This document shows positions 2,556 through 53,151 of a DNA stretch of 64,000 nucleotides, piece by piece. The position numbers were made by a program, and so were the translations under genes. Numbering within the stretch: position 1 is the first letter of the stretch; every line of letters starts with the position of its first letter. Below the pieces are notes generated by a model. The model ran no database searches, was not told the DNA's origin, and was given only the letters and a program-made list of their open reading frames with translations. This DNA is from Cryobacterium cheniae. Its GTDB lineage: Bacteria > Actinomycetota > Actinomycetes > Actinomycetales > Microbacteriaceae. The stretch covers positions 186,446 through 250,445 of the forward strand of contig NZ_SOGN01000044.1 of assembly GCF_004403395.1 (NCBI RefSeq). The letters run 5' to 3'.

Positions 2556-3563
2556 TCAGTAGCCGATCCGCGGGTCGACGACCCCGACGAAACGCCCGTC
2601 TGCAAGGAAGGCGACCACATTCAGGCGAATCCGCTCAGCCAGGAGCGGCCCGGTCATCTCGGGCGTGTCGGCCGAATGGGGCGTGATCAGGCAGCGTGGC
2701 TCGGCCCACAGCGCATGTCCCTGCGGCAGCGGTTCCGGATCGGTCACGTCGAGCGCCGCGCCGGCGATGGTCCCCGCGGCCAGCGCGGCCACGAGGGCGT
2801 CCGTGTCGACGAGCGGGCCGCGGGCGATGTTGACGAGCACGGCCTCTCGGCGCATCAGCTCGAGTTGGGCCGGACCGATCAGGTGCCGGGTGCCGCCCGT
2901 GAGCGCTGCCGCGACGACGACGACGTCGCTGGTCGGGAGAACGCCGGGCAGGGCATCCGTCGCGACCGTGCGGGCCGCACCGGGCACCGGCTCGGTGCCG
3001 CGCCGCACCACCGTGATCTCTGTGCCGAAGGGCGCGAGCAGACGGATCAGCTCCCGGGCGATCCCGCCGGCGCCGATGACGGTCACGTTGAGTCCGTAGA
3101 GCGAGCGCCCCTCGGGCAGGGTGCTCCAGCTCTCGGACCGAGCGCGCTTCGGCAGCACCCGCAGCAGCGCCAGGGTGAGGGCCAGGGCGTGTTCGGCGAC
3201 GGGCTGCGCGTAGGCACCCTTCGCACTGGTCCACAGCAGGTCGGTTCGATCGAGGCCCGCCAGCACCTCACTGAAGGCGTCGACGCCCGCCCAGGGCAGC
3301 TGCACCCACCCGATCCGGGGATGCGCGTCCAGGACCGCGCGCAGATCGTTCGCGCGCCCGTAGTCCAGCCAGATCAGCCCGCGGGTCTCGGCGGAGAGCT
3401 CGGTGAGAGTGCCCCCGGCAGCCTGGACCGCCCGGGCAAAGGCCGGCTCCGGTCGCGGCAGGATGGTGATCGGACCGGGCACCGGGCGTCGGTCTGACGA
3501 CAGCGGTAGGACCGCGTCGGCGAGCACGGCCCGGTGCTGCTCGGTTTCAGTTTTCGTTGACAT
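2556..3563 (-). CDS. D-isomer-specific 2-hydroxyacid dehydrogenase family protein
   Basis: NAD(P)-dependent oxidoreductase of the D-2-hydroxyacid dehydrogenase family, 335 aa from the ATG at 3563. The Rossmann motif VIGAGGIA sits mid-protein. The expected catalytic triad is seen as Arg in NIARGPLVD, Glu in DVTDPEPLP and His in LITPHSADT. The N-terminal half is the family's split catalytic domain, with a typical PVAEHALAL helix before the Rossmann fold. The start overlaps the end of the upstream ATPase gene by 17 bp, suggesting it closes the importer operon. Substrate cannot be assigned; glyoxylate/hydroxypyruvate-type reductase is one possibility. Confidence 0.85.
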   Translation of the reverse strand: MSTKTETEQHRAVLADAVLPLSSDRRPVPGPITILPRPEPAFARAVQAAGGTLTELSAETRGLIWLDYGRANDLRAVLDAHPRIGWVQLPWAGVDAFSEVLAGLDRTDLLWTSAKGAYAQPVAEHALALTLALLRVLPKRARSESWSTLPEGRSLYGLNVTVIGAGGIARELIRLLAPFGTEITVVRRGTEPVPGAARTVATDALPGVLPTSDVVVVAAALTGGTRHLIGPAQLELMRREAVLVNIARGPLVDTDALVAALAAGTIAGAALDVTDPEPLPQGHALWAEPRCLITPHSADTPEMTGPLLAERIRLNVVAFLADGRFVGVVDPRIGY

Positions 3564-45814: not shown

Positions 45815-47570
45815 TCAGCTGGCCGGATCAGCTGGCCGGATCACCGGGCCGGGCACGACGACACGGGCGGTGATCAGGTCGTCCGGCACGGGCGTGTGCG
45901 AGATCAGCAGCACCGCGCGGCCGTCCTGGCGGGCCGTGACCAGGATGTCCCGCACGAGTCGCTCTCCCTGCGCCTCGTCGACGTTGGCGGTGGGTTCGTC
46001 GACGATCAGCACCGGGAAGTCCGCCAGCAGGGCGCGCGCCAGCGCGATCCGCTGCGCCTGCCCGCCGGAGACCAGGGCACCCCGCTCACCGACGCGGGCG
46101 TCGAGGCCGCCGCGCTGGGCGGCCCACTCCCCCAGTCCGACCCGGTCGAGCACCGCCAGCAGGTCGCCGTCGGTGGCGGTCTCGCGGGCGAAGAGCAGAT
46201 TCTGACGGATGCTGTCGTCGAAGAGCCAGGGACGCTGCTCGCACAGCCCAACCCGGCCGCGTACCTCGGCCGGCGCCAGCGTCCGCGCCTCGACGCCGTC
46301 GAGCCGGTACGAGCCCGTGTAATCGAGGAAGCGCACCAGGGTCTGGGCCAACGTGGTCTTGCCGGCACCGCTCGGACCGGCCAGGTGCACGCGGTCCCCC
46401 GGCGCCAGGCGCAGGGTCACGCCGGACACCGCCAGGGCCCGGGAACCGGGCCAGCGGGCGCCGACGTTCGTGAGTTCAAGCACCGGGCGGGCGCTGAGTG
46501 CGGATGTCACGCTTATCCCTGCCTCGGCCGGCTCGACCGGAATCTCGACCGGAACCACGGTCGGTACGGCCGAGGCCACCCGCGCGGCGCTGGAGCGCAC
46601 CTGGCGCCAGACGCCGAGTGCGAGCGGGATCATGCCGAACACCTCGAACACCGCCATCGGCACGAGCACCACCACGGCAAAGCCCGGTCCGCTGATGCCG
46701 ACCGGCCCGGAAAGGGCCGGAATGCCGACCCAGAGCGCGCCGACGGTCGCCAAACCGGCGAACAGCGACAGCACGGCTCCCTGCACGCCCACGCCCAGCG
46801 ACCGGCGCAGCGCGGCCCGGCGCAGCCGGTCGTCGGCGGTGGCGAGACCGGCGAGGCGGGCGTCGAGGGCACCGAAGGCGGTCAGCACGTCGAGGTTCTC
46901 CACCACCTCGAGCACCTCGCCGGCGAGGGTGCCGCGGAGCGGCGCGAGCCGGCGCTCCGACCGGGCGGACAGAACGGTGGAGGCGAGCGCGGCGAGCAGG
47001 CCGCCGGCCAGGAGCGACAGCGCCAGCGTCAGGCCCGCGGCGGGGAGCACCAGCCAGACCCCGAACACGCTCAGGGTGGCGAGGATCCCCGCTGTGGCCA
47101 GCGGCTGCACCACCCGAAGCGGGAAGTCCTGCAGGTCGTCGACGTCACGCACGAGGCGGCTGAGCAGGTCGCCGCGGCTCGTACCGCCGAGGCCGGCCGG
47201 GGCGAGCGGCAGGATGCGGGCGAACACGCCCAGACGCAGGTCCGCCAGCTGACGGAACGCGGCGTCGTGGCCGGCCAGTCGCTCGAGGTAGCGGAACGCG
47301 GATCGGCCGAGCGCGAACGCGCGCACCCCGACGACAGCCATCGAGAGGAACATGATCGGCGGCTGCTCGGCGGCGCGGGTGATCAACCAGGCCGACGAAG
47401 CCAGCAGGGCCACCGCGAAGAGCGCGCTCAGCACGCCCGCGGCCAGGCCGGGGGCGAACCGGCGGACCGGCGGCTGGGCCAGGCGCAGCACGGCGCGCAC
47501 CTCGGCCGGGTCGGCGGTCGTGTCCGCGGTCGGGTCGGCGGTCGGGTCGCTGCTCGCGTTCACCCGGGGA

Positions 47571-47578
<8 letters not shown>
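45815..47578 (-). CDS. cydC: Thiol reductant ABC exporter subunit CydC
   Basis: Half of the CydDC heterodimer that exports glutathione/cysteine-type thiols (or binds heme) and is needed for cytochrome bd assembly; 587 aa. The N-terminus has a DPTADPTADTT repeat, then a six-helix transmembrane domain with FRYLERLAGHDAAFR, typical of CydC. The ATPase has Walker A GPSGAGKTT, signature VSGGQAQRIALAR and Walker B LIVDEPTANVD. The ATG overlaps the cydD stop by 8 bp. Confidence 0.93.
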
Positions 47579-49277
<1,699 letters not shown>

Positions 49278-49282
49278 TTCGT

Positions 49283-50311
49283 TTAGTGTACGGCCGTCTC
49301 CACGGTCGTCTCCACGGCGGCCGAGACGGTCGTGCGGCTGACCCGCTGGCGCAGCACCCAGTAGGTCCAGCCCTGGTAGAGGAAGATGACCGGCATGGCG
49401 AACAGGGCGGTCCAGCTCATCACCTGCAGGGTGTACGGCGTCGAGGAGGCGTTCTCGATGGTCAGGCTGTTCGCCGCGTCGTTGCTCGCCGGCATCACGT
49501 CGGGGAACAGGGACGCGAAAAGCGCCAGGACGGCGAGGGCGATGGTCGCGGCCATCAGCGTGAACGCCCAGCCTTCGGACCCGCGCAGGTTCGCGAGGAA
49601 CGAGACGATCAGACTGACCGCCGCGCCGGCGGCGAAGAGAGCGGTGGGGAGGCTGCCGAAGGCCAGGGTGGTCCAGAGCAGGAATGTGGCGGCCACGACG
49701 ATGGTGACGATCCCGGCCTTCACGGCGAGCTTCTGAGCCCGCTGACGGATGTCCCCCTCGGTTTTGAGGGAGATGAAGACCACGCCGTGGGTGAAGAACA
49801 GGAGCAACGTGGTGAGCCCGCCGAGCAGCGCGTAGGGGTTGAGCAGGTCGAAGAAGGAACCGGTGTAGTTGTGGCCGGCGTCCAGCTGCACGCCCTGCAC
49901 GATGTTGGCGAAGGCGACGCCCCAGAGCAGGGCGGGAACCGCGGACCCGATCACGATCATGAGGTCGAAGCGCTTCTTCCACGCCGCTTCCGGGCGCTGG
50001 TGCCGGTATTCGAACGACACCCCGCGCAGGATGAGGGCGAGCAGGATCACCAGCAGGGCCAGGTAGAACCCGCTGAACAGGGTGGCGTACCACTCCGGGA
50101 ACGCCGCGAAGAGTGCCGCACCGGCCACGATCAGCCAGGTTTCGTTGAGGTCCCAGACCGGCCCGATGGTGTTGATGATGACCCGGCGGTCGAGGTCGTC
50201 CCTGCCCAGGAAGGGCAGCGACATGCCGACGCCGAAGTCGAAACCGTCGAGGACGAAGTAGCCGATGAAGAGCGCACCGATGATCCAGAACCAAAGAATG
50301 TTGAGTTCCAT
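49283..50311 (-). CDS. cydB: Cytochrome bd ubiquinol/menaquinol oxidase subunit II
   Basis: Membrane subunit of the terminal oxidase that reduces O2 using quinol; 342 aa, about eight to nine helices. The N-terminus IGYFVLDGFDFGVGMSLPFLG (read in pieces) is the family signature, and the segment WDLNETWLIVAGAALFAAFP follows. Two ATGs are adjacent; the second (50311) is better spaced from AGGAG. Between cydA and cydD in the canonical order. Confidence 0.95.
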   Translation of the reverse strand: MELNILWFWIIGALFIGYFVLDGFDFGVGMSLPFLGRDDLDRRVIINTIGPVWDLNETWLIVAGAALFAAFPEWYATLFSGFYLALLVILLALILRGVSFEYRHQRPEAAWKKRFDLMIVIGSAVPALLWGVAFANIVQGVQLDAGHNYTGSFFDLLNPYALLGGLTTLLLFFTHGVVFISLKTEGDIRQRAQKLAVKAGIVTIVVAATFLLWTTLAFGSLPTALFAAGAAVSLIVSFLANLRGSEGWAFTLMAATIALAVLALFASLFPDVMPASNDAANSLTIENASSTPYTLQVMSWTALFAMPVIFLYQGWTYWVLRQRVSRTTVSAAVETTVETAVH

Positions 50312-50320
50312 CATGCGCTC

Positions 50321-51733
50321 CTAGTAGACCGTGACCTGTGGCTTGATCTTGCCGGACACCGGGTCGGGTTCCGCCAGCGGGGCAGGTCCCTTCCGCACGG
50401 CCTGCAGGATCAACTTGAATTCGACGACGGCGAGGGCGCCGTAGATCAGCGTGAACGCGATCAGCGAGATCAGGATCTCGACGCCGCTGACATTGGGTGA
50501 CACGCCGTCCTGGGTGCGCAGCAGGCCGAAGACGAGCCAGGGCTGCCGGCCCATCTCGGTGAAGACCCAGCCGACGCTCATGGCGAGCAGTGAGAACGGG
50601 AAGCTCCAGATCGCGATCTTCCAGACCCAGGGTGCCGTCGGGGTGCGACCATTGCGGGTCAGCCAGAGGCCGACGACGGCGACCAGAATGTGCGCGATGC
50701 CGAGGCCGATCATCCAGCGGAAGGCCCAATAGGTGATCCAGATGGTCGGCGTGTAGTCGCCGGGGCCGTACAGGGTCACGTACTGCGCCTGCAGGTTGTC
50801 GATGCCTTCGACGGTGCCGGTGAAGGTGTGGGTCGACAGGAACGACAACAGGTAGGGGATGCGGATTGAGAAGAGTTCGCTCACGCCGTCCGGGGTGCCG
50901 AGGGTGAAGATCGAGAAGGATGCGTCGGCACCCGTCGCGGTCTTGTACATCGCCTCGGCCGCGGCCATCTTCATGGGCTGGGCCGCGGTCATGGCCAGGC
51001 TCAGCGAGTCGCCGAAGAAGGTGGTGATCGCCCCGGAGACGACCATCATCCACATTCCCAGCTTGAGCGCGGGCCGCATGGTGTCCTCGTTCTGCTTGCG
51101 CAGCAGGTGCCAGGCGGCGACCGAGATGATGAGGCCCGAGGACACCATGAAACAGGCGAAGATCGTGTGCGGGAAGGAGGCCAGGGCGATCGGGTTGGTC
51201 AGAAGCTCGCCGATGCTGGTCAGCTCGGCCCGGCCGCGCTCCTCGTTGATGCGGAAGGCGATCGGGTTCTGCATGAACGCGTTCGCCGCGAGGATGAAGT
51301 AGGCCGAGGCGATCGAGCCGGCCGTCGTCAGCCAGATGGTGGCCAGGTGCAGGCCGCGGGGCAGCTTGTCCCAGCCGAAGATCCACAGGCCGACGAAGGT
51401 GGCCTCCAGGAAGAACGCGATGATCCCCTCGAAGGCGAGCGGGGCGCCGAACACGTCCCCGACGAAGCGGGAGTAGTCGGACCAGTTCATCCCGAACTGG
51501 AACTCCTGCACGATTCCGGTGACCACGCCCATGGCGAAGTTGATCAGGAAGATCTTGCCGAAGAAATGGGTCAGCTGCAGGTACTTGGCCTTGTCCGTGC
51601 GCACCCAGGCGGTCTGGAACAGCGCGACCGTGAACGCCAGCCCGATCGTGAGCGGCACGAAGAGGAAGTGATACACGGTGGTCAGACCGAATTGCCATCT
51701 CGACAGGAGTAACGGGTCCAGCCACTCGTTCAT
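50321..51733 (-). CDS. cydA: Cytochrome bd ubiquinol/menaquinol oxidase subunit I
   Basis: Heme-bearing subunit of cytochrome bd; 470 aa with about nine helices. The heme b595-ligand-type His lies in TTVYHFLFVPLTIG near residue 22. A further His/Met ligand region is not assigned by eye. The motif EMGRQPWLVFG is typical. The short length indicates the short Q-loop form common in Gram-positives. GGAGGG precedes the ATG. Two palindromes lie between it and blaI. Confidence 0.96.
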   Translation of the reverse strand: MNEWLDPLLLSRWQFGLTTVYHFLFVPLTIGLAFTVALFQTAWVRTDKAKYLQLTHFFGKIFLINFAMGVVTGIVQEFQFGMNWSDYSRFVGDVFGAPLAFEGIIAFFLEATFVGLWIFGWDKLPRGLHLATIWLTTAGSIASAYFILAANAFMQNPIAFRINEERGRAELTSIGELLTNPIALASFPHTIFACFMVSSGLIISVAAWHLLRKQNEDTMRPALKLGMWMMVVSGAITTFFGDSLSLAMTAAQPMKMAAAEAMYKTATGADASFSIFTLGTPDGVSELFSIRIPYLLSFLSTHTFTGTVEGIDNLQAQYVTLYGPGDYTPTIWITYWAFRWMIGLGIAHILVAVVGLWLTRNGRTPTAPWVWKIAIWSFPFSLLAMSVGWVFTEMGRQPWLVFGLLRTQDGVSPNVSGVEILISLIAFTLIYGALAVVEFKLILQAVRKGPAPLAEPDPVSGKIKPQVTVY

Positions 51734-51756
51734 GCGCCCTCCAGCGTCTTCCGGTT

Positions 51757-51773
51757 TTCTACACTGTGTAGAA
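51757..51773. promoter_or_regulatory. Operator-like palindrome 1 (cydA/blaI intergenic)
   Basis: TTCTACACTGTGTAGAA is a perfect 17-nt palindrome with a single central T. It contains the TACA...TGTA-type core known from BlaI/MecI/CopY operators. It is nearer to cydA. Confidence 0.7.
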
Positions 51774-51780
51774 CATTACT

Positions 51781-51799
51781 CTTCTACGACGCGTAGAAG
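51781..51799. promoter_or_regulatory. Operator-like palindrome 2 (cydA/blaI intergenic)
   Basis: CTTCTACGACGCGTAGAAG has perfect 8-nt arms around ACG. It shares TTCTAC/GTAGAA with palindrome 1, the centres being about 25 bp apart. It would cover the -35 region of the blaI promoter. Confidence 0.7.
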
Positions 51800-51816
51800 T
51801 GTGCGAAGGCGCGCAC

Positions 51817-51822
51817 TAGACT
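51817..51822 (+). promoter_or_regulatory. Candidate -10 box of blaI (leaderless)
   Basis: TAGACT, 7 nt before the ATG of the BlaI-like gene, with no Shine-Dalgarno. The expected -35 position overlaps palindrome 2, consistent with autorepression. Confidence 0.5.
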
Positions 51823-51829
51823 CCCCCCT

Positions 51830-52216
51830 ATGGGGAGTTTGGGCGTACTCGAGAGACTGCTGATGGATGTGCTGTGGGACACCACGGAGCCTCTGGCCGC
51901 CACCGACCTCCGGGACCGGTTGCTCACCCCGGCGGTCGCCGGAGCACGGCGCAAACCGCTCGCCACCACGACCGTGCTGACGGTGCTCTCCCGTCTCGAG
52001 ACCAAGGGCTTCGTCAGCCGCGACCGGGAGAGGCGGCCGCACCGCTACCGGGCCGTGTCGACCCGGGCCGAACACACCGCCGAACTGATGCACGAGGTGC
52101 TCGGATCCGCTCCCGACCGATCGGCGGCCCTGGCCCGGTTCATCGGCGACGTCACCCCGCAGGAGGCCAACGCCCTGCGCCTGCTCCTCGGCACCGCGCC
52201 GCTCGTTCGCGAGTGA
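51830..52216 (+). CDS. blaI: BlaI/MecI/CopY family transcriptional regulator
   Basis: Winged-helix repressor of 128 aa. The DNA-binding domain has LERLLMDVLWDTTEPL and the recognition region LATTTVLTVLSRLETKGFVSRDR, read in parts. The C-terminal half is a dimerisation helix bundle. In this family a membrane metallopeptidase partner triggers cleavage of the repressor; here that partner is the next gene with a 4-bp GTGA overlap. It is likely to regulate itself and the divergent cydABDC through the two palindromes. Confidence 0.92.
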   Translation: MGSLGVLERLLMDVLWDTTEPLAATDLRDRLLTPAVAGARRKPLATTTVLTVLSRLETKGFVSRDRERRPHRYRAVSTRAEHTAELMHEVLGSAPDRSAALARFIGDVTPQEANALRLLLGTAPLVRE

Positions 52217-53151
52217 CCGTCACGGCCGGAGCGCTCCTGATCGTCGCCGTGCTGCTCGCCGGTCCCGTTCCGATCTGGCTCTCCACCGCCGACTGGCCGG
52301 CCCGCTCCCCCGCCGTCGCCCTGGTCCTGTGGCAGTCCATCGCCCTGGCGGGCGGACTCTCCATGATCGGCTCACTGCTCAGCTTCGGGTTGCTCCCGTT
52401 CGGGGAGAACCTGTTCGACGGCATCCGTTCCCTGGTCGGCCACCTGTTCACCGGAACGTTGCCGCCCGATACGTCGTTCGGCGCCGTGCTCATGCTGGGC
52501 GCGGCGCTGATCCTCGGCAGCCATCTGCTGCTCAACCTCGCCGCGACCTTCTCCCGAGCGGAACGCCAGCACCGCCGGCACCGGCACCTGATCGGACTGC
52601 TCAGCGAGCCTCTGCCGCACCACGCCGGCACCCGTGTGATCGAGCACGACTCCCCGGTCGCCTATTGCCTGCCCGGCGCGAGCCGGTCGGCGACGGTGCT
52701 TTCACGGGGTCTGCTGCGGCTGCTGGATGCGGACCAGCTGCGCGCGGTGATCGCGCACGAGCGCGCGCACCTGTTGCAGCGGCACCACCTCGTGCTGCTC
52801 GCCTTCAAGTCATGGAACAGCGCGCTGCCGTGGTTCCCGATCGCCAACCGTGCCGAGAACGCGGTCGCCCTGCTGGTCGAGATGCTCGCCGACGACCAGG
52901 CCAGGCGGGTCGTCGACGACCGCACGCTGGCCACGGCGATCGCACTCGTCGGGTCGGCACACCAGGTGGACCCGCGGGGGACGGATGTCGAACTCGCCGA
53001 CGGCCCGGATCATCCGTTCGACCTGGTGACACCCCGCGTTCGCCGGCTGATCAGCCCGCCGGTGCCGCTGCCGCGTTCCGCCGCGCTGGTCGTCGCGGCG
53101 TCGGCAGCAGCACTGCTGCTGCTGCCGACGCTGCTCCTGTCCCTCGCCTGA
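52213..53151 (+). CDS. M56-family-like membrane metallopeptidase
   Basis: Sensor-type zinc peptidase of about 312 aa. N-terminal helices (GALLIVAVLLAGPVPIWL and LVLWQSIALAGGLSMIGSLL) precede a cytoplasmic peptidase with the HExxH motif AHERAHLLQRHH (about residue 180) and a later glutamate region (EMLADDQA). The C-terminus has one more helix ending LLLLPTLLLSLA. It starts with GTG overlapping the blaI stop. The BlaI/M56 pairing is established in actinobacteria; the signal sensed here is unknown. Confidence 0.88.
   Translation: MTVTAGALLIVAVLLAGPVPIWLSTADWPARSPAVALVLWQSIALAGGLSMIGSLLSFGLLPFGENLFDGIRSLVGHLFTGTLPPDTSFGAVLMLGAALILGSHLLLNLAATFSRAERQHRRHRHLIGLLSEPLPHHAGTRVIEHDSPVAYCLPGASRSATVLSRGLLRLLDADQLRAVIAHERAHLLQRHHLVLLAFKSWNSALPWFPIANRAENAVALLVEMLADDQARRVVDDRTLATAIALVGSAHQVDPRGTDVELADGPDHPFDLVTPRVRRLISPPVPLPRSAALVVAASAAALLLLPTLLLSLA

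Follow-up and report, generated by a model that had tools for sequence, protein, structure and literature searches.

A BlaI repressor and a sensorless BlaR-like peptidase beside cydABDC in Cryobacterium cheniae: a predicted respiratory switch with a wider regulon in relatives

The 64,000-nucleotide stretch of Cryobacterium cheniae DNA analysed here (NCBI RefSeq assembly GCF_004403395.1, contig NZ_SOGN01000044.1, positions 186,446 to 250,445; hereafter the window) carries the cytochrome bd operon cydABDC and, divergent from it, a two-gene operon encoding a BlaI family repressor and a BlaR-like membrane metallopeptidase, with two TTCTAC-N5-GTAGAA palindromes in between. Sequence comparison points to the BlaI-peptidase pair being a respiration-failure switch that derepresses cydABDC and, in relatives, a wider respiratory regulon, a reading to which we assign a probability of roughly four in five. 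A link between BlaI and the bd oxidase has been reported for Mycobacterium tuberculosis; the physical linkage to cyd and the wide respiratory, heme and nitric oxide (NO) regulon appear to be new. In the open-access literature we found neither a BlaI-peptidase pair linked to cyd nor a BlaI regulon described as containing hemQ, hmp, qcr, sdh or nar, and matches for BlaI together with cydA outside mycobacteria were, where checked, due to chance. The features concerned, in window positions, are the following.

51757-51773, operator O1, TTCTACACTGTGTAGAA, the palindrome nearer cydA, recognised from the sequence and kept in relatives
51782-51798, operator O2, TTCTACGACGCGTAGAA, ending 31 bp 5' of the blaI ATG and covering the expected -35 position
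51817-51822, plus strand, -10-like TAGACT, 7 bases 5' of the blaI ATG, recognised from the sequence and a comparative count
51830-52216, plus strand, blaI, 128-aa Penicillinase_R (BlaI/MecI family) repressor without cysteine
52213-53151, plus strand, sensorless BlaR-like membrane metallopeptidase, 312 aa, GTG start
50321-51733, minus strand, cydA, cytochrome bd oxidase subunit I, proposed target
49283-50314, minus strand, cydB, cytochrome bd oxidase subunit II
47571-49268, minus strand, cydD, ABC exporter for bd assembly
45815-47578, minus strand, cydC, ABC exporter for bd assembly

A first-pass annotation of this DNA had reported two palindromes sharing TTCTAC/GTAGAA between cydA and blaI, and both were recovered: O1 and O2 lie between the starts of cydA (51733) and blaI (51830), each with a spacer of 5 bp, and no match to the palindrome arose in 100 shuffles of the window. 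They are also the sole exact TTCTACN5GTAGAA matches in the 3,195,001-base genome. With up to one mismatch allowed, 5 matches were obtained in this genome versus 12 for a reversed control pattern, the three one-mismatch sites all falling within called open reading frames (ORFs), so that near-matches are uninformative here, and in the same search of three congeners control matches again outnumbered real ones; near-matches were therefore not used as targets.

We then considered 150 genomes of the host family, 89 of which have a BlaI match, a close one (E below 1e-25) in 59. The close blaI is divergent from cydA in 58 of these 59 genomes, and the exact operator is present between the two genes in 55 of the 58 regions, or in 57 if one mismatch is accepted. 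The remaining region (L121, genome G134) has three operators, all with a 6-bp instead of a 5-bp spacer, changed alike. Shuffling of 57 family regions (the counts on 57 regions, namely shuffles, -10 element, cydA kinds and site spacing, leave out genome G123) gave no site in 200 rounds. Of the 53 intervals between neighbouring exact sites, most measure 22-25 bp (33) or 42-44 bp (10). Two unlike cydA kinds occur under one BlaI kind in these regions (L098-L159), 25 of the 57 showing more than 60% identity to that of the window and 32 about 40-45%, as if the oxidase operon had been swapped beneath a constant regulator.

The family regions also bear on the claim of the first-pass annotation that one palindrome overlaps the -35 element of blaI. 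A sigma-70 consensus scan returned no promoter near cydA or blaI, missing TAGACT as well, so that the claim rests on comparative spacing: the operator ends 28-33 bp 5' of the blaI ATG in 30 of the 57 regions, all 30 of which have a -10-like TA...T a few bases before this ATG, and such an element is found in 38 of the 57 regions versus 6.2 expected from shuffles. This suggests a leaderless blaI message with the operator over the -35 position. On the cydA side, a -10-like TAATGT picked by eye (minus strand, 51778-51773) touches the edge of O1.

Judged by BlaI, the closest of the named genomes belong to Cryobacterium, with further matches in Arthrobacter, Pseudarthrobacter, Mycetocola, Leifsonia, Labedella, Salinibacterium, Microbacterium and others. 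In the best 80 loci by BlaI, blaI is followed by the peptidase gene in all 80 and cydA is divergent in 75, every one of which has the exact operator. The first-pass annotation had raised the question of whether relatives with the same synteny keep the palindromes, and both the family and the named-genome sets answer it in its favour. The five named loci without cyd (four Arthrobacter and one uncultured Arthrobacter) retain the operator before blaI, and autoregulation would suffice for sites next to blaI, so it could be argued that BlaI regulates only itself and that its position beside cyd is an inherited accident. We hold this to be very improbable: sites are found directly upstream of cydA where there is no close BlaI (L160 and L161), just upstream of split-off cydDC (L152, genome G106) and upstream of unlinked cydA in mycobacterium-like genomes (see below), and the linkage to cyd occurs in three different arrangements.

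These arrangements appear as the comparison is widened. At the order level (20 loci chosen from 83 genomes with a match), cydA is divergent in 16 of 20 and no cyd gene is present in 3, while in the tandem locus L217 blaI-peptidase lies downstream of cydABDC on the same strand. At the phylum level (20 loci chosen from 112 genomes with a match), no cyd gene is near in 17 of 20; the divergent order is seen in L254, from a family of another order, blaI-peptidase-cydAB-cydDC all on one strand in L256, and a tandem order in L263. That the pairing recurs although the gene order varies speaks for a function and against mere inertia. Two further kinds of BlaI-peptidase pair were also encountered. One has the TTCTAC operator and lies near genes for PCu(A)C copper chaperones or a DyP peroxidase (L136, L137, L164 and L282); the other has similar sites and adjoins a molybdopterin oxidoreductase that carries a cytochrome b561 domain (L255 and L279).

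Alternatively, the palindromes might be the targets of a different regulator, such as one that senses NO or redox state, with BlaI a mere neighbour, and the flavohaemoglobin gene hmp, one of the remote targets described below, does often stand beside an Rrf2-like gene (named by eye). The presence of the site nevertheless tracks BlaI, since 55 of the 59 genomes that encode a close BlaI have an exact site somewhere, versus 12 of the 91 others (hand count; 67 of 150 in total, L160 and L161 coming from 2 of the 12), and the same site, or a shifted one, lies upstream of blaI genes of other kinds. There is thus little chance that this explanation is the right one.

With regard to the proteins, BlaI matches PF03965 (BlaI/MecI/CopY) over residues 4-120 in Pfam (62.6 bits, cut-off 22.6), and its own presumed promoter region holds two conserved dyad operators. 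The identities of cydABDC, which runs on the minus strand from 51733 down to 45815, were likewise confirmed with Pfam; within the coding sequence of cydD, at about 48240-48340, alternating Glu-Thr codons (ETETET...) form a simple repeat. The peptidase, whose GTG start overlaps the blaI stop, scores as Peptidase_M48 in Pfam, and the residues H182, E183, H186 and E223 of its zinc site (HERAH plus a downstream E) are invariant in 20 sequences. The idea that a conserved AYC motif close to the protease active site might act as a redox latch was dropped, as some relatives lack the motif. A structure model of the peptidase (mean pLDDT 83) aligned best with Staphylococcus aureus BlaR1 (Z 10.2, rmsd 6.2, 218 residues), with Ste24-type proteases close behind (Z 9-10; Foldseek best E 0.018), and the structural comparison singled out no family beyond BlaR1 and the proteases of the Ste24 and M48 types. 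The modelled alignment covers BlaR1 residues 3-292 only, that is, the membrane and protease part, so that the beta-lactam sensor domain is absent from this 312-aa protein.

This bears directly on the classical function suggested by the family name, in which the pair would sense beta-lactams and control a beta-lactamase, as M. tuberculosis BlaI is described to control blaC (PMC5473688, PMC8265638). As the sensor domain is missing and both exact sites of the genome are at cyd/blaI, we rejected this explanation, which we rate as the least probable of all. The distinction from beta-lactam sensing drawn in the first-pass annotation fits the absence of that domain.

Remote operator sites were then used to predict the regulon, by recording whether the start of a respiratory, heme or NO gene lies no more than 400 bp downstream of a remote exact site. 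Family genomes with a close BlaI contain 33 remote places, of which 32 were tested together and L152 separately (the family set excludes L152, L277, places in genomes without a close BlaI and second-BlaI places); 35 more came from seven genomes of a second family. A listed gene was found at 17 of the 32 family and 18 of the 35 second-family places (35 of 67 in total), versus 0 of 28 places for the reversed control pattern in 28 genomes (29 control sites, one without a locus), a comparison that gives a background rate rather than a clean test, since the gene list was drawn from the operator places themselves. Family targets recognised by Pfam are hmp, pta, atpB and ctaC, the last with the Fe-S gene erpA opposite it. 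The family set also includes an MFS transporter (narK-like by context) before a narG-like sequence, and a multicopper nitrite-reductase-like gene (nirK) behind an NnrS-like gene, the latter without recognition by Pfam. In the second family, Pfam identified hemQ (chlorite-dismutase family), a hemY-like oxidase, CtaG/CopD, SURF1, succinate dehydrogenase (sdhC), a CtaB-like prenyltransferase, COX3 and a QcrC-like cytochrome c as targets; the L438 target, which had no Pfam match, we take to be a truncated hemoglobin.

Several other operator places deserve mention. In five second-family genomes the operator accompanies small membrane-protein genes (L423, L442, L447, L449 and L452, with the site at about position 3000-3090), that of L442 being without a Pfam match; these are candidates for unnamed respiratory factors. 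The 2.7-Mb genome G217 (L422-L435) has 15 exact operators, the largest predicted regulon seen, one of them adjoining isocitrate lyase and another a winged-helix regulator that neighbours an ABC transporter. In two genomes of one genus (L266 and L267) the operator marks the 5' end of a gene that by eye resembles adenosine deaminase, with no clear respiratory link, and in three genomes (L444, L446 and L448) it is upstream of YceI-family genes (Pfam on L446 only).

A cleaner test was provided by eight mycobacterium-like genomes, in which the gene order is blaI-peptidase-gnd-guaB (gene names by eye) and blaI and cyd are not neighbours. Upstream of blaI these genomes have TACGAC-N5-GTAGTA, and a search of the eight genomes with TACKACN5GTMGTA placed the site just upstream of cydA in 6 (L293, L298, L299/L304, L308, L316 and L319) and upstream of atpI-atpB in all 4 genomes where every remote place was examined (L303, L309, L313 and L320), cydA or atp accounting for 8 of the 18 remote places of those four. 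For the two g157 genomes, the sites examined, a subset, are not at cydA. A motif read from blaI alone hence leads to the very two operons linked to BlaI in the literature: in the passages concerned, M. tuberculosis BlaI is stated to bind the promoters of bd-oxidase and ATP-synthase genes (PMC5473688, citing Sala et al. 2009), with binding at the Rv1303-atp promoter seen by electrophoretic mobility shift assay (PMC12565901), and the atp operon or atpH, as well as sigC, are named as BlaI targets (PMC5874750, PMC8265638). The mycobacterial BlaR is described there as having no sensor domain either (PMC5473688). Expression data point in the same direction. Clofazimine treatment of M. abscessus for 24 h changed 14 genes, including those for the bd oxidase and CydC/CydD, and raised ATP-synthase pathways (PMC8765290); a copper-limited M. 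tuberculosis sigC mutant raised the cyd and atp operons together (PMC7924339); and CO induces the bd oxidase in M. smegmatis (PMC8125079). In a BlaI tree, mycobacterium-like rows nest among cyd-linked rows of other families with modest support (80/84, 80/73), and the window BlaI falls in a sister group. The best PDB sequence match of the window BlaI is 2g9w, presumably M. tuberculosis BlaI.

As to the signal, the target set, comprising a copper-free oxidase, NO defence, nitrate/nitrite respiration, heme/aa3 assembly, ATP synthase and acetate overflow, suggests failure of the main chain, and the mycobacterial clofazimine and copper-limitation data, as far as those accounts go, fit this. A CopY-kind switch, in which copper or its lack would be the direct signal and cyd would be released because its oxidase is copper-free, is the most serious competitor, though we think it rather unlikely. 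It draws on a weak CopY_TcrY score, on the PCu(A)C copper chaperones beside the more distant BlaI-peptidase pair with the same operator, on CtaG/CopD among the targets and on the rise of cyd and atp in the copper-limited sigC mutant. Repressors of the CopY/TcrY kind typically carry a C-terminal cysteine hook, and there is no cysteine anywhere in the 128-aa BlaI, which furthermore scores 20.5 bits against CopY_TcrY (NCBIfam TIGR02698), far below the cut-off of 121.95; plain CopY membership was rejected on these two grounds. Nor was a copper-export ATPase recognised by eye in the ORFs adjoining the examined operators, no dedicated search being made, and copper alone does not account for narK, nnrS-nirK, pta, hmp and hemQ as targets. 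The distinction from copper sensing that the first-pass annotation had also drawn may nevertheless not hold, copper starvation of the heme-copper oxidase being a possible signal.

To the origin of the gene list, several points must be added that weigh against the respiration-failure switch. The exact regulon in this genome consists of cyd and blaI only, and its own hmp, 95% identical to that of a site-bearing congener, has no site, two congeners having one. Genome G097 contains the BlaI-peptidase pair with no cyd nearby and no exact site, and 32 of the 67 remote places have no recognised respiratory gene in their vicinity. Finally, the papers bearing on the signal concern mycobacteria, and BlaI cleavage is absent from the measurements reported in the parts of them concerned.

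Overall, we propose that BlaI, as a dimeric winged-helix repressor, would occupy both TTCTAC-N5-GTAGAA palindromes and repress cydABDC as well as its own blaI-peptidase operon. The peptidase, made from this operon and devoid of a beta-lactam-binding domain, would sense a failing main respiratory chain, candidate signals being a blocked or copper- or heme-starved aa3 oxidase, NO, or an over-reduced quinone pool; it would then cut and thereby inactivate BlaI, releasing the bd oxidase and the CydDC exporter. In relatives, the same switch would extend to NO detoxification, to heme synthesis and to respiration on nitrate and nitrite, and further to the bcc-aa3 chain, ATP synthase and acetate overflow. 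What the genomes show directly is the operators and how well they are conserved, the repeated association of the genes, and the regulon; BlaI binding, repression and proteolysis are what we infer from them, and the signal of the peptidase is the least certain step. Control of cyd and its assembly exporter by the BlaI/metallopeptidase pair, as predicted by the first-pass annotation, is thus favoured on comparative grounds, with two amendments, the precedent in M. tuberculosis and a regulon wider than cyd.

More tentatively, at odds we would place slightly below even, a sensorless BlaR-like protease with BlaI may at root be an actinobacterial respiratory-status switch, to which beta-lactamase control would be a later addition in mycobacteria. 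The protease would read, within the membrane, the state of the electron-transport chain, and the repressor would jointly set both oxidase branches (bd and bcc-aa3) together with ATP synthase, heme synthesis and NO defence. If true, this would explain both the mycobacterial BlaR without a beta-lactam sensor and the fact that respiratory drugs raise cyd and atp together. The respiration-failure switch itself would place cytochrome bd, and in relatives much of the respiratory chain, under a specific regulator across many Actinobacteria, with a readable operator code leading to further members, including the unnamed membrane-protein genes beside the operator. It would also make testable the question of what the sensorless mycobacterial BlaR senses, and it bears on why respiratory blockade raises the bd oxidase, a tolerance factor.

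Among known systems, M. tuberculosis BlaI (Rv1846c) and BlaR (Rv1845c) likewise combine a BlaI family repressor with a sensorless BlaR-like protease; however, in mycobacterium-like loci blaI stands beside gnd/guaB and the half-site is TAC[GT]AC, whereas here the pair adjoins cydABDC and the half-site is TTCTAC, and while blaC is a target in M. tuberculosis, relatives of the present locus add hemQ, hmp, nar, nirK, qcr and cta. The BlaR1-BlaI and MecR1-MecI pairs of S. aureus share the repressor and membrane metalloprotease architecture, but the pair described here has no penicillin-binding sensor domain and no beta-lactamase at its exact sites. The copper repressor CopY belongs to the same broad repressor family, from which the present BlaI differs by its weak profile score and its lack of cysteine. 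Terminal-oxidase regulators with other folds, such as HrrSA, Rex, NsrR and ResDE, also balance oxidases, heme and NO defence; these are two-component or ligand-binding regulators, in contrast to the repressor-plus-protease pair found beside cydABDC.

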